Assembly: GCA_903930765.1 (NCBI GenBank)
Contig: CAIYZV010000310.1
Location: 1 to 34,067 of the forward strand
DNA: 34,067 bases
Reading direction: 5' to 3'
DNA from: an uncultured Pirellula sp.
Lineage (GTDB): Bacteria; Planctomycetota; Planctomycetia; Pirellulales; Pirellulaceae
Shown: piece by piece, positions 4,951-23,390 of the stretch
Layout of the letters: every line of letters begins with the position of its first letter
Numbering within the stretch: position 1 is the stretch's first letter
Notes under the pieces: generated by a model
Database searches by the model: none
The model's input: the letters and a program-made list of their open reading frames with translations, nothing else
Told to the model about the DNA's origin: nothing
Translations under genes and position numbers: made by a program

Positions 4951-4953
4951 CGC

Positions 4954-6688: not shown

Positions 6689-6760
6689 TCCTTTATCGCT
6701 CTCGTCAATAGAGCGTTAAACCTACTGTGTCCCCGATCTTGAAGCAAAGGTGTTCTTAGT

Positions 6761-7462
6761 ATGCGATCCGATTCGATAGCGGAAAAACGAGAGGGGAATG
6801 CGTTAGGCGAGATAACTTATCGCGGCGCACGCATCACAAGCATAGATTCCGTAGTTGTGCAGGTTCAGACGTGGCAAGCGGAACATGGTCTCGGGACAAT
6901 GGTCGTCGGTGTCATCGGAGAACGGCGTGGAGTAGGTAACACATCCTTTGCACTCCAATTGGCAAAACAAGCAACCGGGTTCGGGCTCGGAGATGTCTTG
7001 TACGTTGAGGGTGGGAGAGACGAACCAGTCCCGAAAGGCACTCGCGAGAGTAGTCCGAAAACAAGGCCGGGTTTAGTCGACCATTTGAATGGTCTGGTTG
7101 AGTTGGAGGAATGCATTGTTAAACGAACAGACCTAGGGCTCTTTGTCTTGCCTTGGGGCGCGATGCATGATTCAAACGATCGGTCCGTTGGGCCAATTAT
7201 GTATCAGCATGTGTTTCAGGAATTGCGAACTCGATTCTCCTGGGTCGTTGTCGACTTGCCGGTGATGACTGAGTTGGAGACGGTACCCGCATGCGCTTCG
7301 CAGGTGGATGGGGTTATTGTCGTGGTTGATAACCAAAAGTCCACAGCGACCAACGTTCGGGCGGTGCTCGAGGGTATGGCGATTCTTCAAATTCCAGTAA
7401 TAGGATGCGTGTTGAATCGATACGCATTGCCACTTCCGCGCTGGATTTCGCGTTGGTTGTAG
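6761..7462 (+). CDS. CpsD/BY-kinase-like P-loop protein with degenerate Walker A
   Basis: A 233-residue protein with the fold order of bacterial tyrosine kinases and ParA/MinD-type ATPases that partner Wzz/GumC proteins. The strand VVGVIGERRGVGNTSFALQLA sits where such kinases have a GxxxxGKST loop. Here the catalytic lysine position is Asn60 (GVGNTS). The Walker A' strand VLYVEGGRDEP replaces the usual VLLIDaDlRrP, so its acidic residues are altered. The Walker B strand WVVVDLPVM keeps Asp165. The typical C-terminal tyrosine cluster is missing; the protein ends PLPRWISRWL. It is therefore probably a non-catalytic or regulatory paralogue (inference). ATG 6761 has an AAGG 10 nt upstream. It lies 72 nt after the chain-length gene and 34 nt before a GT4 gene, consistent with an operon. 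Confidence 0.8.
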   Translation: MRSDSIAEKREGNALGEITYRGARITSIDSVVVQVQTWQAEHGLGTMVVGVIGERRGVGNTSFALQLAKQATGFGLGDVLYVEGGRDEPVPKGTRESSPKTRPGLVDHLNGLVELEECIVKRTDLGLFVLPWGAMHDSNDRSVGPIMYQHVFQELRTRFSWVVVDLPVMTELETVPACASQVDGVIVVVDNQKSTATNVRAVLEGMAILQIPVIGCVLNRYALPLPRWISRWL

Positions 7463-7496
7463 CCATGGTCTTTGCGCTCCGACGGAATTTGCCCTC

Positions 7497-8681: not shown

Positions 8682-8702
8682 AGGTGAGGGGACGATCTGC
8701 TG

Positions 8703-10274
8703 ATGAATGCCGGGATGAACGATTTTCATGAGCGATTGGATCGAGTCGTTGAAGCGGCGAGGGACTTAGATACGGAAAGGATCAGCGGAAGAGTCGTCGC
8801 AGCGTATTGTGGCGTTTTGGTGAGCGCCATTCTTTTTCGTTGCGTCGGGATAGTAGGTCGCTCTTTCAGCAGCGACGAAGTTTACGAATTACGGCATTTG
8901 TCTTTAAATTTGCTTGAAATCGCTCGTGATCCAGATGGCTTTCCTCCGTTGTTTCGGTGGTTGATTAGTGCTTGGATCAGTGTGTTCGGAGTTGAGGGAG
9001 CGCGGTTTGTATCGGTGTTCTTCGGCGTCGCCGCGGTGATCGCGATTATGGGTATCGCTCATTTTCTCGGCGGTCTGCGGGCTGGAATAGCAGCGGGTGT
9101 CTGGAGTGCGGCCTCGGCTCATCAAATTGACTTCAGCCAGTCCCTGCGTTCGTATTCGATTTTTATCGCGCTGAGTGCTTTTACCATTCTCGCGGCGCTT
9201 TATTTGACTCGGCGTCCTGATTGGAGGCGATGGCTGCTGTTTCTGCTCACGGCTGGCTTATGTTTCGGGACGCATTATTACGCGGTGTATTTGCTGTTTG
9301 CAGTTTGGGTGTATTTGGTGTGGCAGTTCTGGGATCGCCCCAAGGCATGGATCTGCGGTGCCCTGCTTCAGTTTGTTTTCTGCTTGCCGACCTTGGTCTG
9401 CTTGAGGATCGATTTGACGGTGCCGGTGCCACCCGAAGTCGTTAACCCCGTGGATTTAACAGGTCTCGCATATCTTTATTGGACGCTGCTGGTCGGATGG
9501 TGCCTGGGGCCTTCAGCGACTCAATTGCAGATCTTGGGTGCCAAAAAAGGTATCTTGGCCATGTTGCCATGGTTGCTCCCTGCAGGAATTGCGGTACTTG
9601 TGATCGCGAATGCGGCGTTGAGAAGTGCGGACCGTCGCCGTTGGGCATTCCTGGTGATCATGCTCGTTACGTTGCCTTGGCTGGCCGGCTTCGTCGCGTC
9701 CTCAACGGGTACGAATTTTGTGTCCCGATACCTTTCGTTCCTCGCGGTTCCTTTAGCGGCCGTCATAGGTTGTGCGTTAACCAGTTCGAAGCGACGTTTA
9801 GAGTTTATCGCATTTTCGTTTTTGATCGGTTTGAACCTTCTTTCGACCTACCATCGATCATTCGATTCGGCGTATGCGGCGGAGGACTACGTATCGCTGG
9901 TGCGTTTTATTGACTCACGGTCGGAACGACCCATCGTGATTTCGATGTCACACTACATGTCGTATGCTTTGGAACGAGAAGTCCCCAAAAACTGGCGGTT
10001 CTATGCGATTGCATTTGGCTCCGATGAACCTGAAGATTGGAAAGAGGTCTTGGGGCCGCTTCTAGAAAATGTGTCGGATGACCAGCGTGTTTATTTGGTC
10101 GTACCCTGGGTGAAAGACCCGAGCATTCGTACCGAGCAGCGCGATCGCATGGTTCAATGGATGCAAGGAGAATTGATATCGACGGGTGGCTTCACGGAGG
10201 AACTGTACGAGGGTACGACCGCTGGGATTAAGCGAGCACTGATCGAGTCGTCCAACGTTAGGAACGGACGCTAA
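8703..10274 (+). CDS. GT39-like integral membrane glycosyltransferase
   Basis: A 523-residue polytopic protein resembling the PMT/ArnT-like GT-C superfamily, which uses polyprenyl-phosphate sugars on the outer face of the membrane. After TM1 (about residues 31-48) the first loop has the acidic pair SSDEVYELRHL (D58, E59) and, 20 residues on, FPPLFRWL, in the place of the family's HPPLYY motif. About ten further hydrophobic segments follow to residue 385, then a soluble C-terminal region of about 130 residues. ATG 8703 was taken; ATG 8715 is also possible. It is the last plus-strand gene of the left arm and converges on the GT2 gene. In this context it probably decorates the lipid-linked polymer after export, for instance adding a side-branch sugar (inference). 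Confidence 0.85.
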   Translation: MNAGMNDFHERLDRVVEAARDLDTERISGRVVAAYCGVLVSAILFRCVGIVGRSFSSDEVYELRHLSLNLLEIARDPDGFPPLFRWLISAWISVFGVEGARFVSVFFGVAAVIAIMGIAHFLGGLRAGIAAGVWSAASAHQIDFSQSLRSYSIFIALSAFTILAALYLTRRPDWRRWLLFLLTAGLCFGTHYYAVYLLFAVWVYLVWQFWDRPKAWICGALLQFVFCLPTLVCLRIDLTVPVPPEVVNPVDLTGLAYLYWTLLVGWCLGPSATQLQILGAKKGILAMLPWLLPAGIAVLVIANAALRSADRRRWAFLVIMLVTLPWLAGFVASSTGTNFVSRYLSFLAVPLAAVIGCALTSSKRRLEFIAFSFLIGLNLLSTYHRSFDSAYAAEDYVSLVRFIDSRSERPIVISMSHYMSYALEREVPKNWRFYAIAFGSDEPEDWKEVLGPLLENVSDDQRVYLVVPWVKDPSIRTEQRDRMVQWMQGELISTGGFTEELYEGTTAGIKRALIESSNVRNGR

Positions 10275-10275
10275 T

Positions 10276-10304
10276 ACCTCCGTCGGTTTTGCCTCTCCGG
10301 AGGT
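10276..10304. terminator. Possible bidirectional hairpin between convergent genes
   Basis: ACCTCCG (10276-10282) pairs perfectly with CGGAGGT (10298-10304) across a 15-nt loop. It lies in the 49-nt gap where the GT39 gene and the GT2 gene converge. There is no downstream T-run on either strand, so the terminator reading rests on position and stem alone. Confidence 0.35.
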
Positions 10305-10323
10305 TGAGCGCACTTTGTACGGC

Positions 10324-11277
10324 TTACTTCCCACGATGCGCGTTTTGGCTTGCGAGCTTTTGGATGGATGCTTCATTCCCCCAGGCTGTCCAAATATAGG
10401 CCAGATCGCGTTTCATTTTGCCAGTAGTGCCAACCTCCATGGCTTGGTTGCGCGTCAGTTTCGCCACCGTGCGCTGCAAGGTGCATAGAGTGAAAGAACG
10501 CAATAACCTTAAAAGACTAAGGTATCGCGTCATTGGTATGCCGCGGTACTTGCGATCGCGGTATGCCAAAATGATTCCGGATCTCCTCGCGACGTACTCG
10601 ATATAATTACTATCTGTCCGGTGCGGTGGAATCACATGGAGAATGTGGGATTCGGGGACATGCCGGCCGGGGATTTTCGCCAGAACCAACCTCGTAAACC
10701 ACTCGGTGTCTTCTCCGCTTTGGTGCATGCTTTCGTCGAATTCGCCAAGCGATGCGAATAAGCTCTTATCGATAACGACGTTGCCTGTGGCCGGTAAAAA
10801 ATGGTAGTGGTAATGGGTTGGTGTGCTTACGACAAACTCACCTAGCATCTGCCGTGAGAAAACGTCGAGTGGGGGTGGGTTGGGTTGGACATACTTGAGG
10901 ACGTAGCCGCCACCGGCATAACGTAGATCCTCGGAGCGGCATGCACGCACAAGATGCACCAGCCAATCGCTGGGAGCAAGTTGGTCATCATCAAAGAATG
11001 CGATCCAATCACCCTCGGATTCGCGCACACCTCGGTTTCTAGCACAGGCAATTCCAGGCTTGGGTTCGAAGAAATATCGAACCTTGTACGGTGCGTTGAT
11101 TGCTGCATTCTGAACCACACTTGGAGTATGGTCGGTGCTGCCGTTGTCGATGACTACGATTTCGAAATCATAATCAGGGTATTTCGGCATCGCTAAAAGG
11201 CTTTCGAGCGCCTCGCGTAGCGCGTCACCTCGGTTATAAGTGACCACGACTAATGATAGGAAGGGTTGTTCTGTCAT
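10324..11277 (-). CDS. GT2-family glycosyltransferase
   Basis: A 317-residue GT-A enzyme. ATG 11277 gives MTEQPFLSLVVVTYNRGDAL, the standard family start, and lies 7 nt after the stop of the preceding ligase gene; the ATG 36 nt upstream would overlap that gene. The nucleotide-binding part contains VVTYNRG, VIDNGSTDHTP, the GIACARNRGV loop and the metal-binding WIAFFDDDQLAP (D96-D98), with an acceptor-side segment near SGEDTEWFTRLVLA. The C-terminal 90 residues are basic and include a possible membrane-associating helix. It is the last gene of a three-gene minus-strand unit with the flippase and ligase. It probably adds one sugar of the repeat unit on the cytoplasmic side; the sugar is unknown. 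Confidence 0.92.
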   Translation of the reverse strand: MTEQPFLSLVVVTYNRGDALREALESLLAMPKYPDYDFEIVVIDNGSTDHTPSVVQNAAINAPYKVRYFFEPKPGIACARNRGVRESEGDWIAFFDDDQLAPSDWLVHLVRACRSEDLRYAGGGYVLKYVQPNPPPLDVFSRQMLGEFVVSTPTHYHYHFLPATGNVVIDKSLFASLGEFDESMHQSGEDTEWFTRLVLAKIPGRHVPESHILHVIPPHRTDSNYIEYVARRSGIILAYRDRKYRGIPMTRYLSLLRLLRSFTLCTLQRTVAKLTRNQAMEVGTTGKMKRDLAYIWTAWGNEASIQKLASQNAHRGK

Positions 11278-11284
11278 CGTATTG

Positions 11285-12733
11285 TCATCTGCCGTAGTTG
11301 GTTGGAATGACATCGAATTCGGTTTTTATAGATTGTGGCGTGTTGAATTTCGTCGAAGCACATTGGGCGGTGGATAAAGCACAGTGGGCGGTGGACGTTG
11401 GATCGCACTGGAGTTGATGCAAGTTGGGGCACTCTCTTGAGATTCTGTAAATGAGGAATAGAAGGGCGTAGCTCTCAAAGCCGAGGCTGTAGAACGATGC
11501 CTCGGCAAGTCCGTGGATCAACGCGAACAGAGTAACTGTAAACACCAGTTGGAACTCCGGGCGGCGAGTATAAAGCGTAGCCGTAGCCGAGATCCCGAGG
11601 GTCGACAGAAGTAGGGCCGAGTATGCGATTAGTCCGACAATTCCCAGGTTCAACAGTGCTTCGAGGAAGACCGAATGCGCGTGGGTGATTTCCCACAAGA
11701 AAATCTCCGACGTGCGTTGGATCATTTTCGAATCCCAAAAGGCACCGTAACCACTTCCGCACCACGGTCTCTCCGCCGCGTGCTTGAGCAATTCAAGCCA
11801 CAATGGGACGCGGCCTGTCAAGCTACTGAGATGTTCTGTTCGGCCCATGGCAGCCGCAACACCGATCCGATCCCAAAGATGAAAGATCGAGATCGCCAGG
11901 CCCATCACGCTGATGATGAAAGAACCTGCAATGAGCCCTACCATTCGCCACTTGGGTTCAGCTCGTAGCAGTCCAGAGATAGTTAATGCTGCCACCAATG
12001 CCAGCAGGGTCGTTCGAGACTTTGTCAGAATCAATGCTGCGACACCCGCCAGGATCGTTGCCCACAAGAGCCATCGTAGCTGTGCATTTTGCTTCAGTAG
12101 CATTAGACCTGTCACAATCATCAGGGCTGCATAAACAGCCAACACGTTTGGATGCTCTGTGCCGATGAACCGATAGTAACGCCAAAATGGGTTGAACGTT
12201 CCTTGGTAAATCTCGGCGAAGAATCCGGCCGTGATGAAGCACGTGGATACGCCGAAAATTACCCAGCCTATCTCGCGTAAGCACAAATGCCTTGAAAATC
12301 CATAGAGGCTCAGTGCTACGCACAGTTCTTTAGGAACCCGACGTATGCTCACCGGTAGGTTGGTCGTCCATGCCAATGACGCGACAATCCAAAAGAGTTG
12401 AAACGCCAGTAGGAAGATAAGAAAGTTTCTAATCGGGAGAGTTTTATCGGTTTTAAAGAGACAGCAAATTGCACCCGCGAAGGCCAAGCCGAGGAAGGAG
12501 ATGGCCGCGTTGATGTTCCCTGACTCTGCGTACTCCGCAGATTTGTTGGCGTCGACGTCGTAGGGGACGAGTTCTGCGGGTACCAGTGTCTTACTGGCAT
12601 TCCATGACTGATAGTAAAATGCAAAGCACGCCGCAATGATCGCAATCGTAAGTAAAACGACGGGAACGTTGACGGTATCCCGCGACGATGCAACGATCGT
12701 CGCTTTTGGAGGATGGATCGCTGTCGTACTCAT
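11285..12733 (-). CDS. O-antigen ligase / Wzy-type polymerase family membrane protein
   Basis: A 482-residue polytopic protein with about 10-12 hydrophobic segments. ATG 12733 (MSTTAIHPPKATIV) overlaps the flippase stop by one base (TGATG), implying translational coupling, so a start 186 nt upstream was rejected. Family signatures are TKSRTTLLALVAALTISGLL, then the large extracytoplasmic loop with GSGYGAFWDSKM and ITHAHSVFLEALLNLGIVGL, whose His corresponds to the conserved loop residue of the Wzy_C family. These proteins polymerise or transfer lipid-linked glycans on the outer face of the membrane. Ligase and polymerase cannot be separated from sequence alone; with Wzz and flippase partners in the same locus, polymerase is my preferred reading. 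The hydrophilic tail contains an odd 7-residue repeat. Confidence 0.86.
   Translation of the reverse strand: MSTTAIHPPKATIVASSRDTVNVPVVLLTIAIIAACFAFYYQSWNASKTLVPAELVPYDVDANKSAEYAESGNINAAISFLGLAFAGAICCLFKTDKTLPIRNFLIFLLAFQLFWIVASLAWTTNLPVSIRRVPKELCVALSLYGFSRHLCLREIGWVIFGVSTCFITAGFFAEIYQGTFNPFWRYYRFIGTEHPNVLAVYAALMIVTGLMLLKQNAQLRWLLWATILAGVAALILTKSRTTLLALVAALTISGLLRAEPKWRMVGLIAGSFIISVMGLAISIFHLWDRIGVAAAMGRTEHLSSLTGRVPLWLELLKHAAERPWCGSGYGAFWDSKMIQRTSEIFLWEITHAHSVFLEALLNLGIVGLIAYSALLLSTLGISATATLYTRRPEFQLVFTVTLFALIHGLAEASFYSLGFESYALLFLIYRISRECPNLHQLQCDPTSTAHCALSTAQCASTKFNTPQSIKTEFDVIPTNYGR
11358..11395. repeat. 21-nt tandem repeat within the ligase C-terminus
   Basis: GCACATTGGGCGGTGGA (from 11358) recurs as GCACAGTGGGCGGTGGA (from 11379). 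The period is 21 nt with one mismatch over 17 bases. It is in frame and gives the protein repeat STAHCAL/STAQCAS in the polar tail. Such a repeat is atypical for this family and looks like a recent local duplication or a short intergenic-type repeat absorbed into the gene end. Confidence 0.7.
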
Positions 12734-14109
12734 CAAGCTATACCCTCCAATAAGTCTCTGGGTTCTGAGGGGGACTTGGAGTCCTGCCCGATGCATTTCC
12801 TGAACGCGAAATACGTAAGGACCGCTGAGCAGCTGTTTCCGCACAAAATGGCGAGTGCAGAACCTTGCATGCCCAACCAGGGTATCGTAAGTACCGCAAC
12901 GACCAGGGACACCGCGCAATTCGCCAATTCACCTCGCAGGTTAGCTTGGGATTGACCAAGGGCTGCCAAGCCATTGCCGGCGACAATTGCCCAGCTCACT
13001 ACCAGCATGTTCAATCCTAGCAAACCGGTGACCACGTTAGATCGAGCGTCGGTGTCTTTGTAGATTCGTTCGACGAGGGTGTCTCCGAACATCAAGAAGA
13101 GAAGGCACAAGGGTGCGAGCACCGCTGTAAAAATAAGAGCGCTGCTCCACATCGAACGGGATAATGCATGCGAGCCATGGGTGTGGTACGCGTGCACATT
13201 CTGTCCCAGAAGGTAATTGTTCAAACCAGCGATCAAGGTCAGCGAGATACCCGTCAGATTCAGGCACTTGATAAAAGTCGCGGTCTCCGAGTCGCCTCGC
13301 ATGACCGCGAGTATCCATGGGATGAGCATCGCCCCGCCCAGTGCAAACGCTCGTGCAAATACAAGCCACTTTGCGTAATCCCACGAGGTTGTCCATTGCT
13401 GCCAGAGTCGATCACGTTCCAATTTCCATGAGAGCGGTGGGTTCAAGAACCAGATCAGGATTGGAAGGGAATTGGAAACTGCGAGCACAGTGGCGACACT
13501 GAGCAGTTCGATCGGCTCACTAGCCCACAAAAATCGCATTCCTAGAAACAATATTCCGCCTAGTTGAAGCAGAGATGCGAGTCCGTCGACTGCGATCGCA
13601 AGGATAGGGTGGAACGTCGTGAATGAGACGGTGCGAAGATGATCTTTCAAAAGTATGCCGGGCAGGATCATGCACTGAACGAGCAGACTATAGCCAAACT
13701 CGGAATTGCTGCCACCAACGATGAGTGATATCGCTGCGGCGAGCATGGTAATGACCGATACGACTGAGAAAAAAAACTCGTGTGCAAGGCTATTCCCGGT
13801 CCATGATGGAAGATCGGTCGTGGGGCGGTGTGCAAACGATACGAAGGGTGCTGAAATCACTCTCTCTTGAATGGCCCGTAGGTAGCTAATCAACTGCCAT
13901 CCCAAGGCGAAGCTGGTGAAGACATCGTCGCTACTGCATCTTGCCAGAATGACAAAGGTCAAGAAATTCGATGCGCTCACCGTCGCTTGGTTGGTAACGC
14001 CCAAGACGAGTCCAAACCAATTGCTTCTGGTTTTTCCCACGTTTTCCAAATCGGATGCGGGGGCGTCCGAAGTCGTGAGAGGGGGCCCACCGATGAGTTT
14101 TGTTGTCAA
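12733..14109 (-). CDS. Wzx-like polysaccharide flippase (MOP superfamily)
   Basis: A 458-residue polytopic membrane protein with about 12 predicted helices. An N-terminal soluble stretch of about 30 residues precedes FGLVLGVTNQATVSASNFLTF, a typical MOP/Wzx first helix. Family assignment rests on topology, length and neighbourhood rather than a catalytic motif, since Wzx proteins are divergent. Late helices contain LGLNMLVVSWAIVAGNGLAALGQ, as in MATE/Wzx repeats. It heads the minus-strand arm and its stop overlaps the start of the ligase gene (TGATG). Its expected role is moving undecaprenyl-linked repeat units across the cytoplasmic membrane for the polymerase. The upstream side is a 336-nt gap shared divergently with the secreted glycosidase. 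Confidence 0.8.
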   Translation of the reverse strand: MTTKLIGGPPLTTSDAPASDLENVGKTRSNWFGLVLGVTNQATVSASNFLTFVILARCSSDDVFTSFALGWQLISYLRAIQERVISAPFVSFAHRPTTDLPSWTGNSLAHEFFFSVVSVITMLAAAISLIVGGSNSEFGYSLLVQCMILPGILLKDHLRTVSFTTFHPILAIAVDGLASLLQLGGILFLGMRFLWASEPIELLSVATVLAVSNSLPILIWFLNPPLSWKLERDRLWQQWTTSWDYAKWLVFARAFALGGAMLIPWILAVMRGDSETATFIKCLNLTGISLTLIAGLNNYLLGQNVHAYHTHGSHALSRSMWSSALIFTAVLAPLCLLFLMFGDTLVERIYKDTDARSNVVTGLLGLNMLVVSWAIVAGNGLAALGQSQANLRGELANCAVSLVVAVLTIPWLGMQGSALAILCGNSCSAVLTYFAFRKCIGQDSKSPSEPRDLLEGIA

Positions 14110-14278: not shown

Positions 14279-14445
14279 GATAGTGGTTTTACGGACCGTC
14301 GCTGGAGTCCTTATGAAATCGCGGTCGCGGCTGTATATTGACGGGGCTCGGGGCAAAAATCTGAGGTTGATTCTCTCAAAGCTGTCCTGGGATTCGTAGT
14401 GAGTTTTTGAGTCGTTGATCTCGTGTGCTGGAATGGGGCGTTCGG

Positions 14446-17070
14446 ATGAGTCTACGGTTTTACTCTAGTTTGCTCGTGGCACTTTCAGCCTTTGGGTTTT
14501 CAGTAGGTGCCCAGCAGGTTGAAGCTCAAGTTCTAGACAAGCAGTCTCTGCTCGAAAATCAAACCTATTTTGATAATCGCGACTGGGACTGGTATCTGGA
14601 GAACATCCCGTTCTTCGATTGCCCAGAACCAGACGTGGTGACAACCTACTACTACCGCTGGGAGTTGATCACCAAGCATTTGACCTATGGATCGCCAGAT
14701 ACGGGATATTTGTTTACCGAGTTTATTGACCGACCATTCTGGTCCGGGGCGTATGGCGCCATCAGTTGCCCAGCCGGCCACCAACTTTATGAAGCGCGTT
14801 GGCTCCGAGATCCAAAGATCGCTAACGACTATTCGAAGTATTGGTTGCAAACCAAAGGTGCACAGCCTCGGAACTATTCAACTTGGCTGGCCGACTCCGT
14901 CCTCGCGGTGGAGCGCGTTCATCCGAATCCAGCGATCCTCAAGTCCCTTTTGCCGGGCTTGGTCGACAACTACCGAAAATGGAAAGAGCGACATTACGAT
15001 GCGAACGTTGGATTGTTTTGGCAAACCGGCCATGACGATGGGATGGAGTTCAATATCGCCAGCCGCCAAACCCAAGATATCTTGCGAGGTGCTCCTAGCT
15101 ATCGACCGTCGTTCAATGCCTACATGTGGGCGGATGCGATTGCCATCGCTGAAGTTGCAAAACGAAGTGGCGACGTCGACATCGCGAAAGAGTTTGCGGA
15201 GTTCGCTGCGACGCTTCGAGAGACGATGCTAAAGAAGCTTTGGGATCCCAAACGGCAGTTCTTTTTTCCCATGTTCAAGAACGATGAGAACAGGGATGGT
15301 TACGACATTAAGGCTCTAACTCTGGTCTATGAGTCTGGGCGGTTCGCAGGGGATTCTCACGGTCGAGAGCTCATCGGTTATGTGCCGTGGCAATTCAACA
15401 TGTTGGACTCCAATCCGGAATACGACGTTGCATGGAAAAAACTGATGGATCGCGATGGTTTTTACGCGGAATACGGGCCGAGTACGGTCGAACGAAACGA
15501 TCCCATGTTCTTGCTTCAGAAAAGCTGCTGCTGGTGGAGTGGTCAATCGTGGCCCTATGCCACCACCCAAACCCTGAAAGGACTAGCGAATTTGCTCCAG
15601 TCACGCTCGAGCGATGCCGTGTCTGCGGATGACTATGTTCGCTTGTTGAACATCTACGCGAAATCGCACCGCAAGGATGGAAAGCCGTACCTTGCGGAAG
15701 CACTGCACCCCGATACGGGGTCCTTTGAAGGGCATGATGGGTACAACCACAGCGAGCATTACTTCCACTCAGGCTTCTGTGACTTAGTGATCAGCGGACT
15801 GGTTGGTTTGGATGTGGTTGGTGTCGATCCAACGGGTTATGGTGAGGTTCGTATCTGCCCTCTAGCACCTGCGGAATGGGATTACTTTGCCTTGGATGGG
15901 GTTATGGTGCGAGGCCGACAGGTGTCCGTGATTTGGGACAAAGAGGGAAGTAAATATGGAATTAAATTTGGGGCGGGAAAGGGGCTTACGGTGATCGTGG
16001 ATGGCCGAGTTATCTTAAACCGTCCAGACTTGAAAGCAGTATCATTCCGTTTGCCACCCGTGACCCAAACTCGAGACGGAGCGGCAACGGAGACATCAGC
16101 TAGTCGACAAAACGATAATCGCGTTGTCAATCACGCGGTCAACAACAACGGTGATTACTTCCCGAGAATGACTGTGTCGTCCACGAGCGAGAATACGTCG
16201 GTGTCTAGGATCCAGGATGGAAATTACTGGTACCTGCAAAACCCTCCCAATCGTTGGGAGAGTGGGGGTGGGAAAATGGCTGAGAAGGAATGGATCGAAG
16301 TCGACTTCGGTGTTCCTCGCAATGTGCAAACCCTGAAGTTTTATTTTCTCGATGATGAGACGGACCGGGATGGAGAGATTGCTGCGCCGGGACAGATTGC
16401 CGTTTCAACCCAGCTCGATGGGGAGTGGAACCGTTTGGATAGTTCGAGGATGGGATCCATCGACGGTCATCGCCCCACCACCATGAAACTTGGGGATAGC
16501 ATGGTTCGGAAGGTTCGATTGGAGATGGTACCGAAAGAGGGGCGGCGCGTTGGATTGACGGAGATCGAAGCATGGGGTGACGGGGAACTGCCCTATCGCG
16601 TGGCGCCACCTCCGAGTGGGAATGTCGCCTACAGGCCTGAGGGTGCCGTGTTCCCGCGAGCAACCGCGTCGCACAGCGATCGTTTTGGAGGAACCCCTGA
16701 AAAGTCGAACGATGGAAAAACGGTGTTTGTTCCTAATCCGGTGAATCGCTGGACGAGCTACGAGTCGCCTGAGAAGAGCGATTGGTTGCAGATTCAGTTC
16801 GAAAAACCTACGCGCTTTTCGCGCGTCGAACTCGCCATCTACGATGATCGTGGCGGCGTGCAAGCACCAAAATCCTATGCGATCGAGGTATGGGTCGATA
16901 ACGATTGGAAGAGAGTTCGCGATGAAGTGCATCAACCGATGGAACCGCGCGGGAATCAGTGGAATGACGCCAGGTTCGAACCGGTCGTGAGCGATCGAGT
17001 GAGAATCGTGTTCGAACATAAACTACCAGCCAAGAGCGGTGTGACCGAGGTCATGGTTTGGCCAGAGTGA
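14446..17070 (+). CDS. Secreted (alpha/alpha)6-barrel glycoside hydrolase with two discoidin-like domains
   Basis: An 874-residue exported protein. ATG 14446 gives the signal peptide MSLRFYSSLLVALSAFGFSV with cleavage near GAQQVEA. Residues of about 35-480 resemble the MGH/GH63/GH37-like six-hairpin glycosidases. HDDGMEFNIASRQ aligns with the SGxD-type acid region of clan GH-G. CCWWSGQSWPYATTQTL resembles the WRGPxWP segment, and GHDGYNHSEHYFHSGFCDLVISGLVG resembles the closing helices. Two beta-sandwich modules of the F5/8 type C kind follow (about 560-700 and 710-874), each with NRW... and WIEVDF or WLQIQF strands, likely for glycan binding. The substrate is unknown; alpha-glucosidic or alpha-mannosidic bonds are typical of relatives. 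Divergence from the flippase suggests processing of the exported polymer, but dietary glycan use is equally possible. Confidence 0.82.
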   Translation: MSLRFYSSLLVALSAFGFSVGAQQVEAQVLDKQSLLENQTYFDNRDWDWYLENIPFFDCPEPDVVTTYYYRWELITKHLTYGSPDTGYLFTEFIDRPFWSGAYGAISCPAGHQLYEARWLRDPKIANDYSKYWLQTKGAQPRNYSTWLADSVLAVERVHPNPAILKSLLPGLVDNYRKWKERHYDANVGLFWQTGHDDGMEFNIASRQTQDILRGAPSYRPSFNAYMWADAIAIAEVAKRSGDVDIAKEFAEFAATLRETMLKKLWDPKRQFFFPMFKNDENRDGYDIKALTLVYESGRFAGDSHGRELIGYVPWQFNMLDSNPEYDVAWKKLMDRDGFYAEYGPSTVERNDPMFLLQKSCCWWSGQSWPYATTQTLKGLANLLQSRSSDAVSADDYVRLLNIYAKSHRKDGKPYLAEALHPDTGSFEGHDGYNHSEHYFHSGFCDLVISGLVGLDVVGVDPTGYGEVRICPLAPAEWDYFALDGVMVRGRQVSVIWDKEGSKYGIKFGAGKGLTVIVDGRVILNRPDLKAVSFRLPPVTQTRDGAATETSASRQNDNRVVNHAVNNNGDYFPRMTVSSTSENTSVSRIQDGNYWYLQNPPNRWESGGGKMAEKEWIEVDFGVPRNVQTLKFYFLDDETDRDGEIAAPGQIAVSTQLDGEWNRLDSSRMGSIDGHRPTTMKLGDSMVRKVRLEMVPKEGRRVGLTEIEAWGDGELPYRVAPPPSGNVAYRPEGAVFPRATASHSDRFGGTPEKSNDGKTVFVPNPVNRWTSYESPEKSDWLQIQFEKPTRFSRVELAIYDDRGGVQAPKSYAIEVWVDNDWKRVRDEVHQPMEPRGNQWNDARFEPVVSDRVRIVFEHKLPAKSGVTEVMVWPE

Positions 17071-17104: not shown

Positions 17105-17629
17105 CTACCAATGATCTGGTGAAACCCACGGGATCTCATCGCTCTGCCCCCTGGTTTTGTCGCTGATCGCGTCCTTTTGGCGTTGGATCAAGTCGAATTC
17201 CGCAACGGCTCGGGCTCCTGTGGGTATTTGTCCAAACACAATCACATGCTTGATTTGTCGGTTTCCGACGGGAAACTTAACGCTGCCGTTCCGGGCGACA
17301 AACGCCTCGAGAGGGATAGACAACGTTCCCCCAGGGGTGACACCTTTGGGTTCGGATGCGTAGAACTGCTCATTCAACCCAATCGATACATTTTTCCACG
17401 GTTGATCCGTCGGATTCTTTACCGTGATCGATGGGATTAGCCGGCGGTTTGCAGCGTCCGATTCCGGGCCCACCCACATGGCATCCAAGCGGACTTGGGC
17501 GTCCAGCGGCGGCTCCCGCATCGGTTTCATCCACGCGGCCAAACCTAATCCGTAACCGACTGGAATAAAGACACTCAGTAGAATGAGGGCTGTGAGTGTT
17601 TTGCGGTTTAGGGTGATCCCTGTTGCCAT
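17105..17629 (-). CDS. Membrane-anchored protein of unknown function
   Basis: A 174-residue protein I do not recognise. An N-terminal signal-anchor (TALILLSVFIPVGYGLGLAAW, about residues 13-33) follows a short basic head. The exported remainder is mostly beta-rich, with SITVKNPTDQPWKNVSIGLNEQ and SIPLEAFVARNGSVKFP looking like an immunoglobulin-type sandwich. A polar tail (QRQKDAISDKTRGQSDE) follows. There are no catalytic motifs and no lipobox. It is divergent from the P-loop GTPase pair, with only about 60-126 nt between the starts, so the two units may share a control region. A role together with the membrane-bound GTPases is conceivable but rests only on position. ATG 17629 is the only reasonable start. 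Confidence 0.75.
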   Translation of the reverse strand: MATGITLNRKTLTALILLSVFIPVGYGLGLAAWMKPMREPPLDAQVRLDAMWVGPESDAANRRLIPSITVKNPTDQPWKNVSIGLNEQFYASEPKGVTPGGTLSIPLEAFVARNGSVKFPVGNRQIKHVIVFGQIPTGARAVAEFDLIQRQKDAISDKTRGQSDEIPWVSPDHW

Positions 17630-17684: not shown

Positions 17685-17690
17685 TACTAT
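17685..17690 (+). promoter_or_regulatory. Candidate -10 element for the GTPase pair
   Basis: TACTAT is a five-of-six match to TATAAT. The -35 position (17662-17667, TTAGTT) is poor. If used, transcription would start near 17697, after the TTG codon at 17690, favouring GTG 17756 as the translation start. Confidence 0.25.
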
Positions 17691-17755
17691 TGGCGAATCA
17701 GCCGTTTTGTCAATCGATTCAGGTTTTCAGCGATTTCGCTTCCAAAAGCATTCCC

Positions 17756-19999
17756 GTGGACAGTACGTTAACGCAACTAGTATCCGATTTGGACGTTTTG
17801 GTCCGAGGAACCTCGGTCGCGAGGTCGGATGTAGCTGTTCCAAATTCGAGTTTTCTCGATTTGCTGAGGGAATCGGAAAAAGGATCCCGAGTTTCGAGGG
17901 CTGATGATCCGAGCGAGTCTTCGTTGGCAAAGGAATTGTCGGAGGCATTGGAACAAGCTCGCGTTTTGTCGACGGCACCTGCGTGTCCCATCGTCGCGGT
18001 TCTTGGGATGCTCAACGCAGGCAAGAGTTCGTTGGTGGCGACATTCCTGAGTTCCGGGGGAATGGACACAACGCGTCGGCCCGACGATTATCGCTCGCGG
18101 GTGCTCATCGGCGCCGCAAACTCCGAAGGAACGCATCGATTTGTTCTTTGGCTTCCTGAATCGTGGAAGACGCATGAACGTTTTTGGGAGTTCATCCGCG
18201 AGCGTTTGACGGCAATCTTCGGATGCGAGTGTGAGTCCCTTTCAGAAGATTCCGAGTTGGCGAGTCTCCAGTACAACGATATGTCACCTAGGATGGTGAA
18301 GACTTCCAGTGGAGAGACGGAGCAGCGTAGTCCCATCGAAGTCCCCCTCGTCGCATTCGATCCGAGTTTGGACCGCCTCGGGATTGCGCTCATGGATTGT
18401 CCCGATGTTCAAACGGGACTAATGGATCGCGGCATCGACGTTCCCGTCCAATCGACACGTTACGATGAAGCCTCGGCTGTGGTTGCCAATAGTCGATTCG
18501 CAGTTTTGACTCGTGCAGCGCGGATCTGTTCGGCCTCGATTGTCGTACTTCCCGCAAACTCGATGCATGATCAAACCGTGAGCAAGTTATTGCGCTTGCT
18601 AGAAAATCAAATGCCGCATGTGCAGCGGATCATGGCTGTAAACCGGGTACCGCGAAAATACCTGGTCGAGCAGATCTCGAAAGAAGTCCGTCACCTCTAC
18701 GTGTCTACTGGACTCCGCAGGGTGTACATGGCATACCATTTCGAAGGCCCTAAGGATCGCGATAAACTTCCGTCCCCGCCTTCTGAGTTAGCGAATGCCT
18801 TAAACCCGCCACTCCCTTTGTTCTTTCGAATCGATGAAGAATCGCGTGCGCAGCCTCCCGAGCGAATACCTGATGGGGATTGGCTGATCCGGCTGGGCCG
18901 CCAATTGCAAGCGAATGATTTGCTAGAAGATTCCATCCGTTCTGCAACGACCCGTTTGGCAAGCACGATCCATGCTGGAATTTCAGAATTACGGACATGG
19001 AATGAGAAGAAGCGGCACGAAAATCAGTTGGCAATGCGGACGATCGCGGACGCGTGTATGGATTTTTCGATCGACCCAAATTCTTCGGCGACACAACCTC
19101 GGATCCGTCTTCAAGCATCTCGACAAGTCGTTGAGCAGATCGCTGAATCTCTTGAGCGGACCGCACCTTGGTGGGCGAAACCGGGGCGTTGGGTGCAACG
19201 AATTGCACAAGCTGGCAAAGAGTCTGTCACGCATGCAACTTCCTGGTTTCGCGTCCCAGGTTGGGTTTCCGATGGTTCGAATGCGGTAGGAGACTGGATT
19301 CGTGCACGATTCAAGCGTGGTGAGAATGGTCACGTGGTCACAGCCAATGCGCTTTGCGAACGACTGGCACAACGGGATATTTCCGGCGTTTTTCAACTGG
19401 ATGAATCCGAATCGAGACGGGAAACGGTTCGGGCTGCATGCCAACGCGCGATCGATCGGTTTCAGCAGGAGAGCCGCACCCGTTTGGATCAAGACCAAGT
19501 CGACGCGTTAACACGGCGATTATGGGCCGAGATGCCGATGGGGAAACGCTTACTAAGCGGCATCGCGCCCGCTGGTATCCTGTTTGCTCCCCTGTTGGCA
19601 GTGATCATGGTGCCACTGGATTTTGGCGGTTCCGCGGTACTCGTTTTTGCCTCGTTGAAGGAACTCCTCGTCGCAGGTGCTGCGGGTGTCGGATTGGTAA
19701 TGGCGAACGCCGACTCCATGCCGCAAATTGCTGAAACCGAATCAGCATGGCAGCAGTTGTCGGATTTAGTCTCCCTGGTGATCGATGAACTAGGCTTCGA
19801 ACGCACCGCGTCTACCAATCCACACAAAGTTTCGCTGGCCGGAGTGAGTCGTGAGTTGACGCAAAGCCAGCTTCAGGTCAAGAAGCAGTTAGGGCGCGAG
19901 ATGCCTGGGGCGACGCTTACGCCCTTGGTTTTTGATGAATCGGTTCTCAAGCAAATTCAATCGCATTTGACGGCTATGGAGCGTGCGCAAAGATCATGA
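17756..19999 (+). CDS. Dynamin-like large P-loop GTPase, membrane-anchored (first of a pair)
   Basis: About 747 residues from GTG 17756, or 769 from TTG 17690. There is no in-frame ATG before the P-loop, so a non-ATG start is obligatory. Counting from GTG, G1 is GMLNAGKSS (84-92). The switch/G3 region is LMDCPDVQTG, with Asp in place of the usual Gly of DxPG. The G4 position is VNRVP rather than N/TKxD. A long helical middle region (about 370-590) precedes a hydrophobic block of about 50 residues (SGIAPAGILFAPLLAVIMV onward), fit for membrane insertion. A helical tail of about 100 residues ends the protein. This architecture resembles bacterial dynamin-like proteins and related GTPases that remodel or tether membranes. 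The stop overlaps the next gene's start (ATGA). The exact family is unconfirmed. Confidence 0.75.
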   Translation: MDSTLTQLVSDLDVLVRGTSVARSDVAVPNSSFLDLLRESEKGSRVSRADDPSESSLAKELSEALEQARVLSTAPACPIVAVLGMLNAGKSSLVATFLSSGGMDTTRRPDDYRSRVLIGAANSEGTHRFVLWLPESWKTHERFWEFIRERLTAIFGCECESLSEDSELASLQYNDMSPRMVKTSSGETEQRSPIEVPLVAFDPSLDRLGIALMDCPDVQTGLMDRGIDVPVQSTRYDEASAVVANSRFAVLTRAARICSASIVVLPANSMHDQTVSKLLRLLENQMPHVQRIMAVNRVPRKYLVEQISKEVRHLYVSTGLRRVYMAYHFEGPKDRDKLPSPPSELANALNPPLPLFFRIDEESRAQPPERIPDGDWLIRLGRQLQANDLLEDSIRSATTRLASTIHAGISELRTWNEKKRHENQLAMRTIADACMDFSIDPNSSATQPRIRLQASRQVVEQIAESLERTAPWWAKPGRWVQRIAQAGKESVTHATSWFRVPGWVSDGSNAVGDWIRARFKRGENGHVVTANALCERLAQRDISGVFQLDESESRRETVRAACQRAIDRFQQESRTRLDQDQVDALTRRLWAEMPMGKRLLSGIAPAGILFAPLLAVIMVPLDFGGSAVLVFASLKELLVAGAAGVGLVMANADSMPQIAETESAWQQLSDLVSLVIDELGFERTASTNPHKVSLAGVSRELTQSQLQVKKQLGREMPGATLTPLVFDESVLKQIQSHLTAMERAQRS

Positions 20000-21837
20000 A
20001 TGAGTCATTAGCCATCGCGGATCGTATCGAAAGTGCAGCGCTGCGGTTGCTGGGTCAGCAGTCGACGTGCCATACCATCGTGCAGTGGTGTGAAGAATAC
20101 CGTCGACAGGCAAACGACATCATGAGCGGACGAGGGATCGCACTACCCAGTTTTGCAATCGTTGGAGCAAAGGGCCAAGGCAAAACCTGGGTGGCGAGGC
20201 AAATGCTTCTCGACGAACGCGTCGCGGAATCCCTGCCGAGCGGTGTGCTGACCAGCGAGGCGACGACTCAGTTGCATTGGATTGGGCCCGTTCCACCGGA
20301 GGCGTTGGATCCCGCGAAAGAAGTGTATGTGCCGTGCCCGGCACACCGAATGCTCGATTTGGGACGACCCTATCTTTTGATCGATACACCCGGATACACC
20401 GACGACGATCCAGCCGCCGCCGCAATTGCTCGCGACTCACTCAGCTTTTCGCCGATGAAGTTGCTGGTCGCTCGTCGCGATCAATTGCGCAGCGCCATCC
20501 ATTCGCAGTTGGCGGCCTTGACCGATGGAGCTGTTTGTATTCCGTTGATCACCTGCGTTCCCTTGAAGGAGATCTCGACTGGAATCTCAGCGCGAGGAAA
20601 GGGGGCGAGTGGCGATGCCGGCTATCAAGAGGAGCGATTCAGTGAATCTCTAAGGGGGGATTTGGAATGGTACCGTGCGGCATTGACCGCGAGCGCTCCG
20701 AATACACGATTTCTGGATCCCATCGTCATCGCCGATTTCGAGGCGGACGGAAACGAGGAGCAGGTTGGAGAGCGACTGCGATCGGATCTCAAGGAGCGAT
20801 TGTCGCGGGAATCAATCGATGCGATCTCCTCAACGAAAGCAAATCGATTGGCGTCATTGAATGATCGGTTGAGGCATCGGGTTTCGCAATCGATCGACAG
20901 CCAAGTCCCGCAGTTGGCGCAAGCGGTGCGCAAATTGCATGCGGCAGCCGACGCGCTGCCGAGCCATGCCATCGAAACGGTGCTAGGATCCAAGCAAGTC
21001 CTCAAAACGGCGATTCGCGATCGGATTCGAGCGGATGTCATCGGCGGCACTGGATTGTTTTGGTTCCCCTATCGAACGTTGCTCAACATTCTCGGGTTCA
21101 CGCATGGCGCATGGGATCGACTTCTGCTCTCGATGACCGGAAGCATCCCATCCATCTTCGGAACCTTTGCCGCGTGGGCGAAGAATCTAGCCAGTTCCAG
21201 GGAGGCGAATCAAGGCTTGCAGGAGGGGATACGGGATCAGCTGAATCGACAAATCCAAGATCGACTGCAGCCAGCCCAGCAGCAGTTCTACCGTACCATC
21301 GATCGGATCCGTGGGGATCATCGCGAAGGACGTTCCGTCGATGGCGAATTGCGTGTTCGATTGGCTGGTGTGGACGAATTGCAATTGCAAGCACGCGAGG
21401 TATTCGATTTCACGTTGGAAAAAAACCGGGCGTCCCGCGTGGCGTTGCTGGTGTTTGGTGCCCTGGGAACATCGCTCTTTTGGGGGTTGATGGCTGGTCC
21501 CATTATTTCAATTTACCGCCAGTATTTTTATGCCAGTTACCGTGCATGGACCGATTCGTCGGCGTTGGTTGAGTCCTTCCCGCACCCGAGTCCAGGAATG
21601 CTGTTCACCTCGACCGTGATCTCCTTGGTGCCCGTTTTGGTGTTCGCCATGCTCGTCATGAGTTGGTACCAACGAGCTGCGCGGCTCAATGGCTTAGCAG
21701 AGAATGTGTATTCGGCGGAATTGAGCAAAGTTGAGGAATTGAAGAGGCTCGGGGTGATTCAATTGCACTACGAAGACCCCGTTTTGGAAGCCGCTGAATT
21801 TTTGGTCAACTTGGAAACCAAGACCTCGGTGGGGTGA
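19996..21837 (+). CDS. P-loop GTPase-like membrane protein (second of a pair)
   Basis: A 613-residue protein whose ATG overlaps the previous stop by 4 nt, implying coupled translation and probably a stoichiometric partner. The P-loop is FAIVGAKGQGKTWV (G57-T64). The Walker B/G3 motif is LLIDTPGYTDDDP (D130-G133), better preserved than in its partner. No N/TKxD motif is visible; the matching strand reads LITCVPLKE. Residues of about 255-480 are helical. Two membrane segments follow, ALLVFGALGTSLFWGLMAGP (about 483-502) and FTSTVISLVPVLVFAMLVM (about 537-555), then a 55-residue cytosolic tail. It is a divergent paralogue rather than a copy of the first gene. ATP use cannot be excluded because base-specificity residues are missing. 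Confidence 0.75.
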   Translation: MNESLAIADRIESAALRLLGQQSTCHTIVQWCEEYRRQANDIMSGRGIALPSFAIVGAKGQGKTWVARQMLLDERVAESLPSGVLTSEATTQLHWIGPVPPEALDPAKEVYVPCPAHRMLDLGRPYLLIDTPGYTDDDPAAAAIARDSLSFSPMKLLVARRDQLRSAIHSQLAALTDGAVCIPLITCVPLKEISTGISARGKGASGDAGYQEERFSESLRGDLEWYRAALTASAPNTRFLDPIVIADFEADGNEEQVGERLRSDLKERLSRESIDAISSTKANRLASLNDRLRHRVSQSIDSQVPQLAQAVRKLHAAADALPSHAIETVLGSKQVLKTAIRDRIRADVIGGTGLFWFPYRTLLNILGFTHGAWDRLLLSMTGSIPSIFGTFAAWAKNLASSREANQGLQEGIRDQLNRQIQDRLQPAQQQFYRTIDRIRGDHREGRSVDGELRVRLAGVDELQLQAREVFDFTLEKNRASRVALLVFGALGTSLFWGLMAGPIISIYRQYFYASYRAWTDSSALVESFPHPSPGMLFTSTVISLVPVLVFAMLVMSWYQRAARLNGLAENVYSAELSKVEELKRLGVIQLHYEDPVLEAAEFLVNLETKTSVG

Positions 21838-21947
21838 TCGGTTTGTTTGGATTCGGACGGAGGTCGTCGGACACCGGGCCGCTGACGCGATACCGCTACT
21901 GTCTGGATCCGGCTGGAGCGTACCGCCACTATGAAGCAGAACGGTCG

Positions 21948-23390
21948 TCAAGCGAGAATGGGTGTGACAACGGTTCCGTGGACGTCGGTCAATCGATAAT
22001 CGCGACCTTGGAAACGGAAGGTCAGCTTTGTGTGATCGAAGCCGAGCAGATGCAGGATCGTGGCGTTGAGATCGTGGACGTGCACGGGGTTCTGAACCGC
22101 ATTGAACCCAAGTTCATCGGAGCCACCATGCACATGGCCTTTCTTCAAGCCGCCACCTGCCATCCATACGCTGAAGGCCCGATTGTGGTGATCGCGTCCA
22201 TCGTTGCCACCTTGGACCATGGGTGTCCGTCCAAATTCGCCACCCCAAATAACAAGCGTATCATCCAACATGCCCAAACGCTTGAGGTCCTTGATCAACG
22301 CGGCGCTGGGTTTATCCGTGGTGTTCGCATTGTTCTTAACGTCTGCGGTTAGGTTGCCATGCTGATCCCATGCCTCATGAAATAGTTGGACGAAGCGTAC
22401 ACCGCGTTCGAGCAATCGCCGTGCTAGCAAACAGTTACGGGCGAAGCTGCTTTCTTTGGGATCTTTCACGCCGTAGAGGTCAAGGGTTTCCTTGGATTCG
22501 CTGGCGAGATCCATCAGCTCCGGCGCGCTCGTCTGCAGCTTGTAAGCGAGTTCATAGCTTTGGATACGTGCCGCGATTTCAGGATCGCCGAGTTGCTCTT
22601 CGGCGATTCGGTTCAATTGGCTGAGGGTGTCGATCGATTCGCGTTGAATCTCGTTATCGATTCCTTTCGGATTCGAGATGTAGAGCACAGGATCCCCAGC
22701 ACTTCGGAATGGAATTCCAGCATACGTGGTGGGTAGGAACCCGCAACCATAATTGCTGGCACCGCCGCTGGTCCCTTTGGCACTGGTGAGCACTACAAAA
22801 CCCGGTAGATCCCTTGCTTCGGAGCCCAGCCCGTAAAGGGTCCAGCTGCCCAAGCTCGGTCGTCCGAATTGTTCGGAGCCTGTGTTCATCAGGATCTGCG
22901 CTGGAGCATGGTTGACAGCGTCGCTTTGCATGGAGCGAATCAAGCAGATGTCGTCGGCGATTTCGCCGATATGAGGTAGTATCTCGCTGAGTTCCATCCC
23001 GCACTGTCCACGCGGTGAGAACGGATACTTGGGGCCGAGGAGTGCGGAGTTGGGGTTGATGAAGGCAGCCCGGTAACCTTTGAGCAATTCCTGCGGGGGG
23101 AGTTGGCCGTTCCTTTTGGCGAGTTCCGGTTTGGGATCGTAGAGTTCCAATTGGCTAGGAGCCCCTGCTTGGAAAATGTACACCACCCGTTTCACCTTGG
23201 GCGTAAAGTGTGGCTGTTTGGGGCTGAGTGTTCGTTCGTCCGGATGGACTGCTGATTGCGTGGGAGTTTGCCCAGCGAGCATCTCCATGGCGGCGATTCC
23301 AGCCAAGCCAACGCTGCATTCCCTCATGAACCAGCGCCGCTTCAACAGTGTAGCGCGCGCATTGCGTAGATCGGTGTCGATGCTGGACAT
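21948..23390 (-). CDS. DUF1501 protein (second tandem copy)
   Basis: A 480-residue member of the DUF1501 family, which belongs to the alkaline phosphatase/sulfatase-like superfamily and is expanded in planctomycetes; its biochemical role is unknown. ATG 23390 leads into LLKRRWFMRECSVGLAGIAAM, a Tat-like export signal (Arg18-Arg19). A TTG at 23432 is also in frame. Typical segments are VVYIFQAGAPSQLELYDPKP, NHAPAQILMNTG, YGLGSEARDLPGFVVL, the WGGEFGRTP motif, DGRDHHNRAFSVWMAGGG and ATILHLLGFDH. It is clearly paralogous to the gene just upstream, with the motif order conserved throughout. It is the last gene of the GntR-PSD1-DUF1501-DUF1501 unit and converges on the GTPase pair across 110 nt that hold nothing recognisable. 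Confidence 0.9.
   Translation of the reverse strand: MSSIDTDLRNARATLLKRRWFMRECSVGLAGIAAMEMLAGQTPTQSAVHPDERTLSPKQPHFTPKVKRVVYIFQAGAPSQLELYDPKPELAKRNGQLPPQELLKGYRAAFINPNSALLGPKYPFSPRGQCGMELSEILPHIGEIADDICLIRSMQSDAVNHAPAQILMNTGSEQFGRPSLGSWTLYGLGSEARDLPGFVVLTSAKGTSGGASNYGCGFLPTTYAGIPFRSAGDPVLYISNPKGIDNEIQRESIDTLSQLNRIAEEQLGDPEIAARIQSYELAYKLQTSAPELMDLASESKETLDLYGVKDPKESSFARNCLLARRLLERGVRFVQLFHEAWDQHGNLTADVKNNANTTDKPSAALIKDLKRLGMLDDTLVIWGGEFGRTPMVQGGNDGRDHHNRAFSVWMAGGGLKKGHVHGGSDELGFNAVQNPVHVHDLNATILHLLGFDHTKLTFRFQGRDYRLTDVHGTVVTPILA

Follow-up and report, generated by a model that had tools for sequence, protein, structure and literature searches.

Predicted fold of P1 and P2

The question raised by this locus is whether two overlapping genes of an uncultured Pirellula sp. 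(GenBank assembly GCA_903930765.1, contig CAIYZV010000310.1) encode a pair of dynamin-like proteins and, if so, what the pair may do. The whole 34,067-nt stretch of DNA analyzed is termed the window, and the two overlapping open reading frames (ORFs) are termed P1 and P2. The identity of the pair was supported as far as predicted folds, the order of domains, and the pairing of the genes can show. The ORFs and their junction are:

17690 to 19999, + strand: P1, putative dynamin-like protein 1; ORF of 769 amino acids from TTG 17690, more likely 747 amino acids from GTG 17756
19996 to 21837, + strand: P2, putative dynamin-like protein 2; ORF of 613 amino acids from ATG
19996 to 19999, + strand: ATGA overlap of the P1 stop and P2 start, seen in the sequence; suggestive of translational coupling

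An earlier note on this DNA had described two large ORFs overlapping by ATGA, and this was evident in the junction (...TCATGAATGAG...), where the P1 stop and P2 start share these bases. Long open frames were found to be kept in homologues with identities down to 21% (P1) and 16% (P2), and thus the two ORFs are not chance frames; in draft contigs, a few homologues are interrupted or truncated (P2 of locus L141 and P1 of locus L181).

AlphaFold2 models were built from alignments of 56 P1 and 48 P2 homologues (full-length ORFs from named loci). The P1 model had a mean predicted local distance difference test score (pLDDT) of 80.5 and a predicted template modeling score (pTM) of 0.77, while the corresponding values for P2 were 80.9 and 0.62. 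Comparison of the models with the PDB by Foldseek returned the Nostoc bacterial dynamin-like protein (BDLP) as the top match of both proteins (2j69 for P1, E-value 1.1e-7; 2j68 for P2, E-value 1.9e-8), followed by dynamin-like protein (DLP) chains of Campylobacter jejuni, IniA, Fzo1, mitofusins, and EHD for both proteins and LeoA for P2 only. Every match at an E-value ≤ 0.001 (20 for P1 and 40 for P2) was to a chain of the dynamin superfamily, in agreement with the dynamin-like identity that had been proposed; the contrary outcome named in the earlier note was a STAND or AAA fold, and the best structural matches were dynamins instead. Alignment by VIA-align gave Mfn1 as the best match of P1 (5yew, Z 19.3, root mean square deviation (rmsd) 5.0, 331 residues aligned), with rows 1-29 all of the dynamin superfamily and the first other GTPase, EngB, at row 30 (Z 13.3). 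The Mfn1 alignment spans residues 18-769 of P1, and the alignments with Mfn1, Fzo1, and EHD run from residues 13-21 to residue 769; thus, the P1 match takes in the neck-forming helices at both the N- and C-terminus. The best match of P2 was Fzo1 (9kfd, Z 18.5, rmsd 4.6, 265 residues aligned). Both models contain long helices and hydrophobic segments, with trunks that were not confidently superposed.

Homologues of the two proteins provided weak but independent sequence signals for a dynamin fold. The Pfam family Dynamin_N (PF00350) was matched among P1 homologues at a best E-value of 0.0027 (E-value ≤ 1 in 7 of 28 members) and among P2 homologues at a best E-value of 0.01 (≤ 1 in 6 of 25), with the 48-member P2 set reaching 0.00015 (≤ 0.01 in 2 of 48). 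Homology between P1 and P2 themselves was also considered and set aside, as hhalign aligned their G domains only weakly (E-value 0.012; probability 3.6%), which can suggest just a common GTPase core. As a separate observation, the sole Dynamin_N match in the genome of the window lies elsewhere (locus L001, 1501-1602, on contig C427 of genome G000); it covers 34 model positions around a P-loop at 25.8 bits and is possibly a generic GTPase.

Nucleotide sites and membrane segments

Motif conservation was read from two alignments per protein: (i) A3 (56 homologues) and A1 (a wider set, 28 rows) for P1; and (ii) A4 (48 homologues) and A2 (a wider set, 25 rows) for P2. The motifs are:

18005 to 18031, + strand: P1 G1/P-loop GMLNAGKSS, residues 106-114; G106, N109, G111, and K112 in 56/56 of A3
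18395 to 18406, + strand: P1 G3 DCPD, residues 236-239; DxxD replaces DxxG, with D239 in 56/56 of A3 and 28/28 of A1
18641 to 18652, + strand: P1 G4-like NRVP, residues 318-321; N318 in 56/56 and Asp at position 321 in 0/56 of A3
20164 to 20187, + strand: P2 G1/P-loop GAKGQGKT, residues 57-64; K63 in 48/48 of A4 and 22/25 of A2
20383 to 20394, + strand: P2 G3 DTPG, residues 130-133; D130 in 48/48 and G133 in 47/48 of A4, each in 22/25 of A2
21064 to 21144, + strand: P2 signature FPYR...GAWDR...GS, residues 357-383; F357, P358, G371, and W373 in 48/48 of A4 and 25/25 of A2

When compared with the standard G1-G4 set, G1 and the switch Thr were present, while G3 and G4 of P1 and G4 of P2 depart from the standard. 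In P1, GxLNxGK was invariant and the switch Thr (T148) was found in all 56 members of A3, and K112, T148, and N318 were kept throughout the wider set (28/28). The position of the guanine-reading NKxD Asp in P1 (VNRVP, residues 317-321) was occupied in A3 by R (29 members), P (17), K (9), or E (1) and never by Asp. Following strand 4, D294 was present in 56/56 of A3 and 24/28 of A1, with replacement in the other 4; it lies within LPANSMHDQT, a stretch that we take to resemble the trans-stabilizing loop of dynamin. No NKxD motif was found in the P2 protein of the window or in A4. The motifs that the earlier note had named (DCPD and VNRVP in P1; DTPG without NKxD in P2) were thus all recovered, and on account of these non-standard G motifs our claim is limited to a dynamin-like fold rather than a regular dynamin GTPase.

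In P2, both the P-loop and DTPG are lost in 3 of the 25 members of A2 (genomes G046, G115, and G146), which form a single deep branch, while the FPYR...GxW signature is more conserved than the P-loop and persists where the P-loop is lost. Since this signature is kept in all 25 members, P2 may be retained for its membrane-facing part.

Hydrophobic segments that may form such membrane-facing parts are:

19562 to 19690, + strand: P1 hydrophobic hairpin, residues 625-667, by hydropathy, also family-averaged; likely trunk-tip membrane element
21439 to 21513, + strand: P2 transmembrane-like segment 1, residues 482-506, by hydropathy
21601 to 21657, + strand: P2 transmembrane-like segment 2, residues 536-554, by hydropathy

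The P1 hairpin consists of two segments by hydropathy, residues 625-643 and 649-667. The earlier note had placed membrane segments at the C-terminus of each protein; hydrophobic segments do occur in both, but not at the extreme C-terminus, as a further helix follows in each model.

Distribution, pairing, and joint inheritance

Homologues of P1 and P2 were sought by single-sequence search in 147 genomes of relatives. Each gene was detected in 43 genomes, and both were present in 42 of the 44 with either gene; the exceptions were G003, a draft with P1 only, and G016, with only a 114-residue piece of P2. The earlier note had reasoned that homologues never found together would speak against a pair, and this co-occurrence is the opposite. 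By our reading of coordinates, the two genes are adjacent in 31 of the 42 genomes and apart in 11 (G002, G008, G014, G015, G020, G021, G023, G032, G038, G063, and G084), several of which are drafts and one of which (G032) has the genes 13 kb apart. A named collection yielded 109 relatives, of which 80 were kept; 22 of these loci share their P1 with a genome from the relatives. The titles are all of planctomycetes save 'bacterium isolate' (L128) and Ca. Thiobius zoothamnicola. P2 is downstream of P1 in 58 of the 80 loci, with a gap of more than 50 bp in 2.

The pair was found to be nearly confined to the Pirellulaceae. Within the family, P2 was present in 114 of 241 genomes and 17 of 68 genera. 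Presence within a genus was counted for two genera. In the genus of the window, 26 of 27 genomes have P2, which is fragmentary in two of them and split in two in a third; in the Rhodopirellula baltica genus, 14 of 14 have P1, one copy being a fragment. Among 343 genomes drawn from the phylum, P1 was detected in two, both of the Pirellulaceae and one of them that of the window; the P1 profile used was mostly built from Pirellulaceae and may miss distant relatives, although the single-sequence search did reach another family of the order. Outside the Pirellulaceae, the pair was represented in two genomes of that other family (G115 and G146) and in one gammaproteobacterium. The suggestion that the pair is lineage-specific therefore stands for nearly all of its occurrences, which are in Pirellulaceae, but not for these three. 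A side observation was made in genome G046, where the P1-P2 region is tandemly repeated with a period of 6855 bp (L075, 4895-17009); the two copies of P1 are identical, as are those of P2, and the runs of identical DNA reach 4.3 kb. This repeat may be either a recent duplication or an assembly artifact.

Trees were compared for 63 genome-matched P1/P2 pairs, taken from named loci in which P1 and P2 each occur as a single complete ORF and from thirteen hand-chosen genomes (one row, L072, the P2 of G063, is open at a contig end). The P1 and P2 trees had 43 of 60 inner splits in common, compared with at most 2 in 200 label permutations. The P1 and P2 distances were correlated at 0.82 over the 63 pairs and at 0.95 over the 59 pairs left when four long branches were removed, with a maximum of 0.17 in 1000 permutations. 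The P1 tree implies 5 or more changes in the linkage of P1 and P2, through which both genes were kept. Part of this congruence reflects the common descent of the genomes, and it shows joint vertical inheritance rather than contact between the proteins.

The gammaproteobacterium noted above, the symbiont Ca. Thiobius zoothamnicola, has the pair at 5812-9725 of L179, ending 176 bases before an rpoD ORF and flanked on the other side by pnp and a dsbA-like gene. No further match was counted as true in 274 genomes of its class or 92 of its relatives, both counts including Ca. Thiobius itself. Short matches in G604, G800, and G801 and at a second site in G485 scored 22-25 bits and were restricted to the P-loop region; they were read as generic GTPases and left uncounted. 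The pair in Ca. Thiobius was probably transferred as a unit; the donor and direction are unproven because the Ca. Thiobius branch is long.

A model for the pair and its alternatives

We propose that P1 and P2 constitute a heterotypic dynamin-like pair whose task is to tether or remodel the inner membrane, with P1 as the motor and P2 mainly as an anchor, and consider this the probable interpretation, if by no wide measure. The two proteins would be produced together from the overlapping genes and, by analogy with C. jejuni DLP1/DLP2, would assemble with each other. The membrane would be reached through the hydrophobic tip of the helical part, which on hydropathy may be the hairpin in P1 and the two transmembrane-like segments in P2. 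Nucleotide-driven dimerization of the P1 G domain would power the cycle, while P2, whose nucleotide site is weakened and is gone in one deep branch, may serve chiefly as a membrane anchor and scaffold in this division of labor. The outcome would be a cytoplasmic membrane that is tethered, bent, or stabilized as routine housekeeping in this group of the Pirellulaceae. Membrane remodeling by the pair would be consistent with the results.

Several observations weigh against this interpretation. At the sequence level, (i) Dynamin_N scored 14.6 bits on the P1 of the window against a cut-off of 27 and did not match P2; (ii) no Pfam or NCBIfam family was above its cut-off in either protein; and (iii) searches of PDB sequences with the single proteins and with profiles of P1 and P2 gave nothing significant, the best rows of the P1 profile being helix matches to viral nsp8, with C. 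jejuni DLP1 (5owv) below at an E-value of 0.087. At the structural level, the top three VIA-align alignments of P2 cover residues 1-303, rows that extend beyond this residue (9kfe to 609 among them, within the first four) are few or of high rmsd, and generic GTPases are close behind (EF-Tu, Z 15.8). The whole-chain TM-scores of the matches at an E-value ≤ 0.001 are low (0.17-0.33 by query), and thus the trunk arrangement of P1 and P2 is not established; domain swings could account for these low scores. The G3/G4 departures of P1 could mean weak or absent GTP hydrolysis. All three P-loop-less P2 proteins are held by one branch, so a single loss would explain them. Finally, 51 of the 68 sampled Pirellulaceae genera are without P2, and therefore the pair is not essential to the Pirellulaceae cell plan.

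Other readings of the two genes were also considered. That P1 and P2 are not dynamins at all, but P-loop NTPases of another type with a helical C-terminus (STAND, AAA, or other), is suggested by weak Pfam matches that include AAA_22, AAA_16, and nSTAND_NTPase5 and by the lack of a family above the curated cut-off in the proteins of the window; we consider this very improbable, as the Foldseek matches at an E-value ≤ 0.001 are all of the dynamin superfamily and the P1 matches include the neck helices. No chain described as STAND or AAA occurs in the best 50 rows of the four structural lists, although a family may be missing from such lists and still apply. A fold shared with dynamins could still belong to mere neighbors without a common function, as 11 of the 42 relatives that have both genes carry them apart; this reading is hardly credible, given that both genes are retained in those 11 genomes, co-occur in 42 of 44, have congruent trees, and are jointly present in Ca. 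Thiobius.

Two alternatives accept a dynamin pair and differ in its task. A role in membrane stress or envelope repair, as a functional analogue of DynA or IniA/IniC and not a machine of shape or division, is possible and distinctly less probable than not: the architecture and pairing are the same as in the DynA and IniA/IniC systems, the distribution is accessory (17 of 68 genera), and DynA foci form under stress according to passages of PMC6104087. No feature of the sequence points specifically to stress, and such a role is compatible with the tethering and remodeling that we propose. The earlier note had also raised phage defense, in which the pair would be activated by infection or membrane damage. 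In a PADLOC search of six proteins, weak matches were obtained for the P1 of the window (E-value 0.025 to LeoBC and 0.043 to LeoA) and the P2 of Ca. Thiobius (0.00044 to LeoA), while the P2 of the window matched none of the LeoA, LeoB, or LeoC models. A dynamin-like protein of Bacillus subtilis reportedly confers phage resistance, going by the title of a report. Phage defense is nonetheless disfavored and, in our view, unlikely: (i) P2 and P1 are present in nearly all or all genomes of the two genera counted (26 of 27 and 14 of 14, respectively); (ii) their trees are congruent; (iii) no relative was confirmed in viral contigs among 30 pattern matches; and (iv) the neighbors in one clade look like what we take to be ObgE, CoaX, and MnmE. 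Overall, a housekeeping pair that acts on the membrane remains our preferred interpretation. Held by almost every genome in at least two planctomycete genera, the pair would be a concrete candidate for membrane remodeling in cells whose FtsZ-less budding is unexplained; planctomycetes are without FtsZ, and passages of a 2014 review call the mechanism of budding unknown (PMC4164004). The step from two P-loop partners to one also makes testable why bacterial dynamins pair, that is, which partner needs nucleotide.

Gene starts, neighboring genes, and other features of the window

Two features flank the 5′ end of P1:

17680 to 17693, + strand: conserved 5′ element TGCTCTACTATTGG; promoter-like by eye, holds the TTG at which the longest P1 ORF begins and lies between divergent genes
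17105 to 17629, − strand: divergent neighbor ORF of 174 amino acids; an association only, with no Pfam match

The 5′ element was matched exactly in 13 of 191 loci, which by our reading are 5 genomes including that of the window, and a variant, TGTTCTACTAT, was seen in L114, L117, and L125 among 19 loci inspected. In relatives, the element is at, upstream of, or inside the start of the P1 ORF. The start of the longest P1 ORF is therefore doubtful, as TTG 17690 sits within an element whose position relative to the ORF start varies among relatives. A start at GTG 17756, in the same frame, would give a P1 of 747 amino acids, and a corresponding in-frame GTG is seen in L105 (frame read by eye); by inspection, GTG 17756 is the better guess, and the figure of about 750 residues in the earlier note fits it better than the 769 of the longest ORF.

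Upstream of P1, a glycoside-hydrolase-like gene (14425-17070) is followed by the divergent 174-amino-acid ORF, which has a counterpart in L102 (5416-5940) with 157 identical residues; homologues of this counterpart adjoin P1 in 18 loci. Downstream of P2, a DUF1501 gene is encoded on the opposite strand, and an ORF at 21834-22352 that overlaps it and is without a Pfam match was taken as spurious. Elsewhere in the window are (i) an exopolysaccharide-type cluster (3580-14109) with glycosyltransferases, a weak Wzz match, and an O-antigen-ligase-like protein; and (ii) a 562-amino-acid protein with S1 RNA-binding domains (31526-33214, + strand), probably ribosomal protein S1.

Neighbors were also compared across the 80 named loci. 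A homologue of the MotA/TolQ/ExbB family was detected 3′ of P2, on the same strand and within 600 bp, in 26 loci. It overlaps P2 by 4 bp in 13 of these and by 1 bp in 3 (16 of 26), a count favored by taking as its start the in-frame start nearest the P2 stop. Pfam was applied to the copies of L154 and L157, which matched PF01618 (E-values 1.1e-27 and 5.2e-25, respectively), and the others are phmmer homologues of the L154 protein; the latter also matched ExbB and TolQ structures at E-values of about 1e-9. In 13 loci, a homologue of the Ser/Thr kinase of L154 (Pkinase, E-value 8.9e-51) ends 2-81 bp before P1. Only Rhodopirellula-type loci were seen to have these two genes next to the pair; the loci of the genus of the window are without them there. 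No neighbor was common to all clades, and other clades place the pair beside different genes; in this comparison of clades, ORFs were picked by length, so some neighbors were missed or misread. While the linkage is observed, a functional coupling of the kinase and TolQ-like protein to the pair is what this gene order may suggest. A bolder reading is that the proteins form the core of a membrane-shaping machine, an energized dynamin complex for envelope constriction or budding without FtsZ. In it, a P1 motor with a rewritten nucleotide site (DxxD, without the guanine-reading Asp), perhaps not GTP-specific, would work through a P2 that is becoming a pseudo-GTPase membrane anchor, and in Rhodopirellula-type genomes would be coupled to the Ser/Thr kinase and to a proton channel of the TolQ/ExbB-like type; we regard this as speculative and quite unlikely.

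Comparison with known systems

The pair is of a known kind, that of paired bacterial dynamin-like proteins, to which the present analysis adds structural confirmation, distribution, likely joint transfer, unequal decay of the nucleotide sites, and linkage to TolQ-like and kinase genes. No description of this pair was found among open-licence PMC papers on dynamins in planctomycetes or with TolQ, and passages of PMC4164004, PMC2837639, PMC11265339, and PMC7203096 make no mention of the pair. Passages of PMC6104087 state that bacterial dynamin genes mostly occur in pairs and that the C. jejuni pair forms a 2:2 complex, the formation of which triggers GTPase activity and lipid binding. C. jejuni DLP1/DLP2 (5oxf and 5owv) resemble P1/P2 in being a tandem pair with an extra N-terminal part in the larger partner and are of similar size order (84.5 and 71.2 kDa compared with 769 and 613 amino acids); their chains are among the Foldseek matches at an E-value ≤ 0.001 of both proteins. 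By residue number, and not by superposition, the trunk-tip regions of Cj-DLP2 (348-401 and 509-542) are comparable to the signature (357-383) and hydrophobic region (482-554) of P2. Unlike the C. jejuni proteins, P1 has DxxD and is without the NKxD Asp, while P2 is without NKxD, has a G site lost in one branch, and has two transmembrane-like segments that distinguish it from DLP2. The gene neighbors also differ, with an HcpA-like gene at the C. jejuni pair.

The Nostoc punctiforme BDLP1 (2j68 and 2j69) is the best Foldseek match of both P1 and P2; however, the identity is 11-13%, and BDLP1 was studied singly, though passages of PMC4159319 note a BDLP2 gene nearby. Mycobacterial IniA (6j72 and 6j73) is among the best structural matches of both proteins, yet no match at the sequence level was found in profile searches of PDB sequences. 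Mitofusin and Fzo1 gave the highest VIA-align Z for both (19.3 for P1 and 18.5 for P2), but these act in mitochondrial fusion in eukaryotes and have standard G motifs. Escherichia coli LeoA/LeoBC are likewise paired bacterial dynamins, with LeoA (4aur) at rank 5 for P2 and not among the best 50 Foldseek rows for P1. LeoBC differs in being split into two genes and carried on a pathogenicity island, whereas P1-P2 is present in almost every genome of the genera counted. According to passages of PMC4159319, LeoA on its own bound no nucleotide, which provides a precedent for the unequal pair that P1 and P2 may represent.

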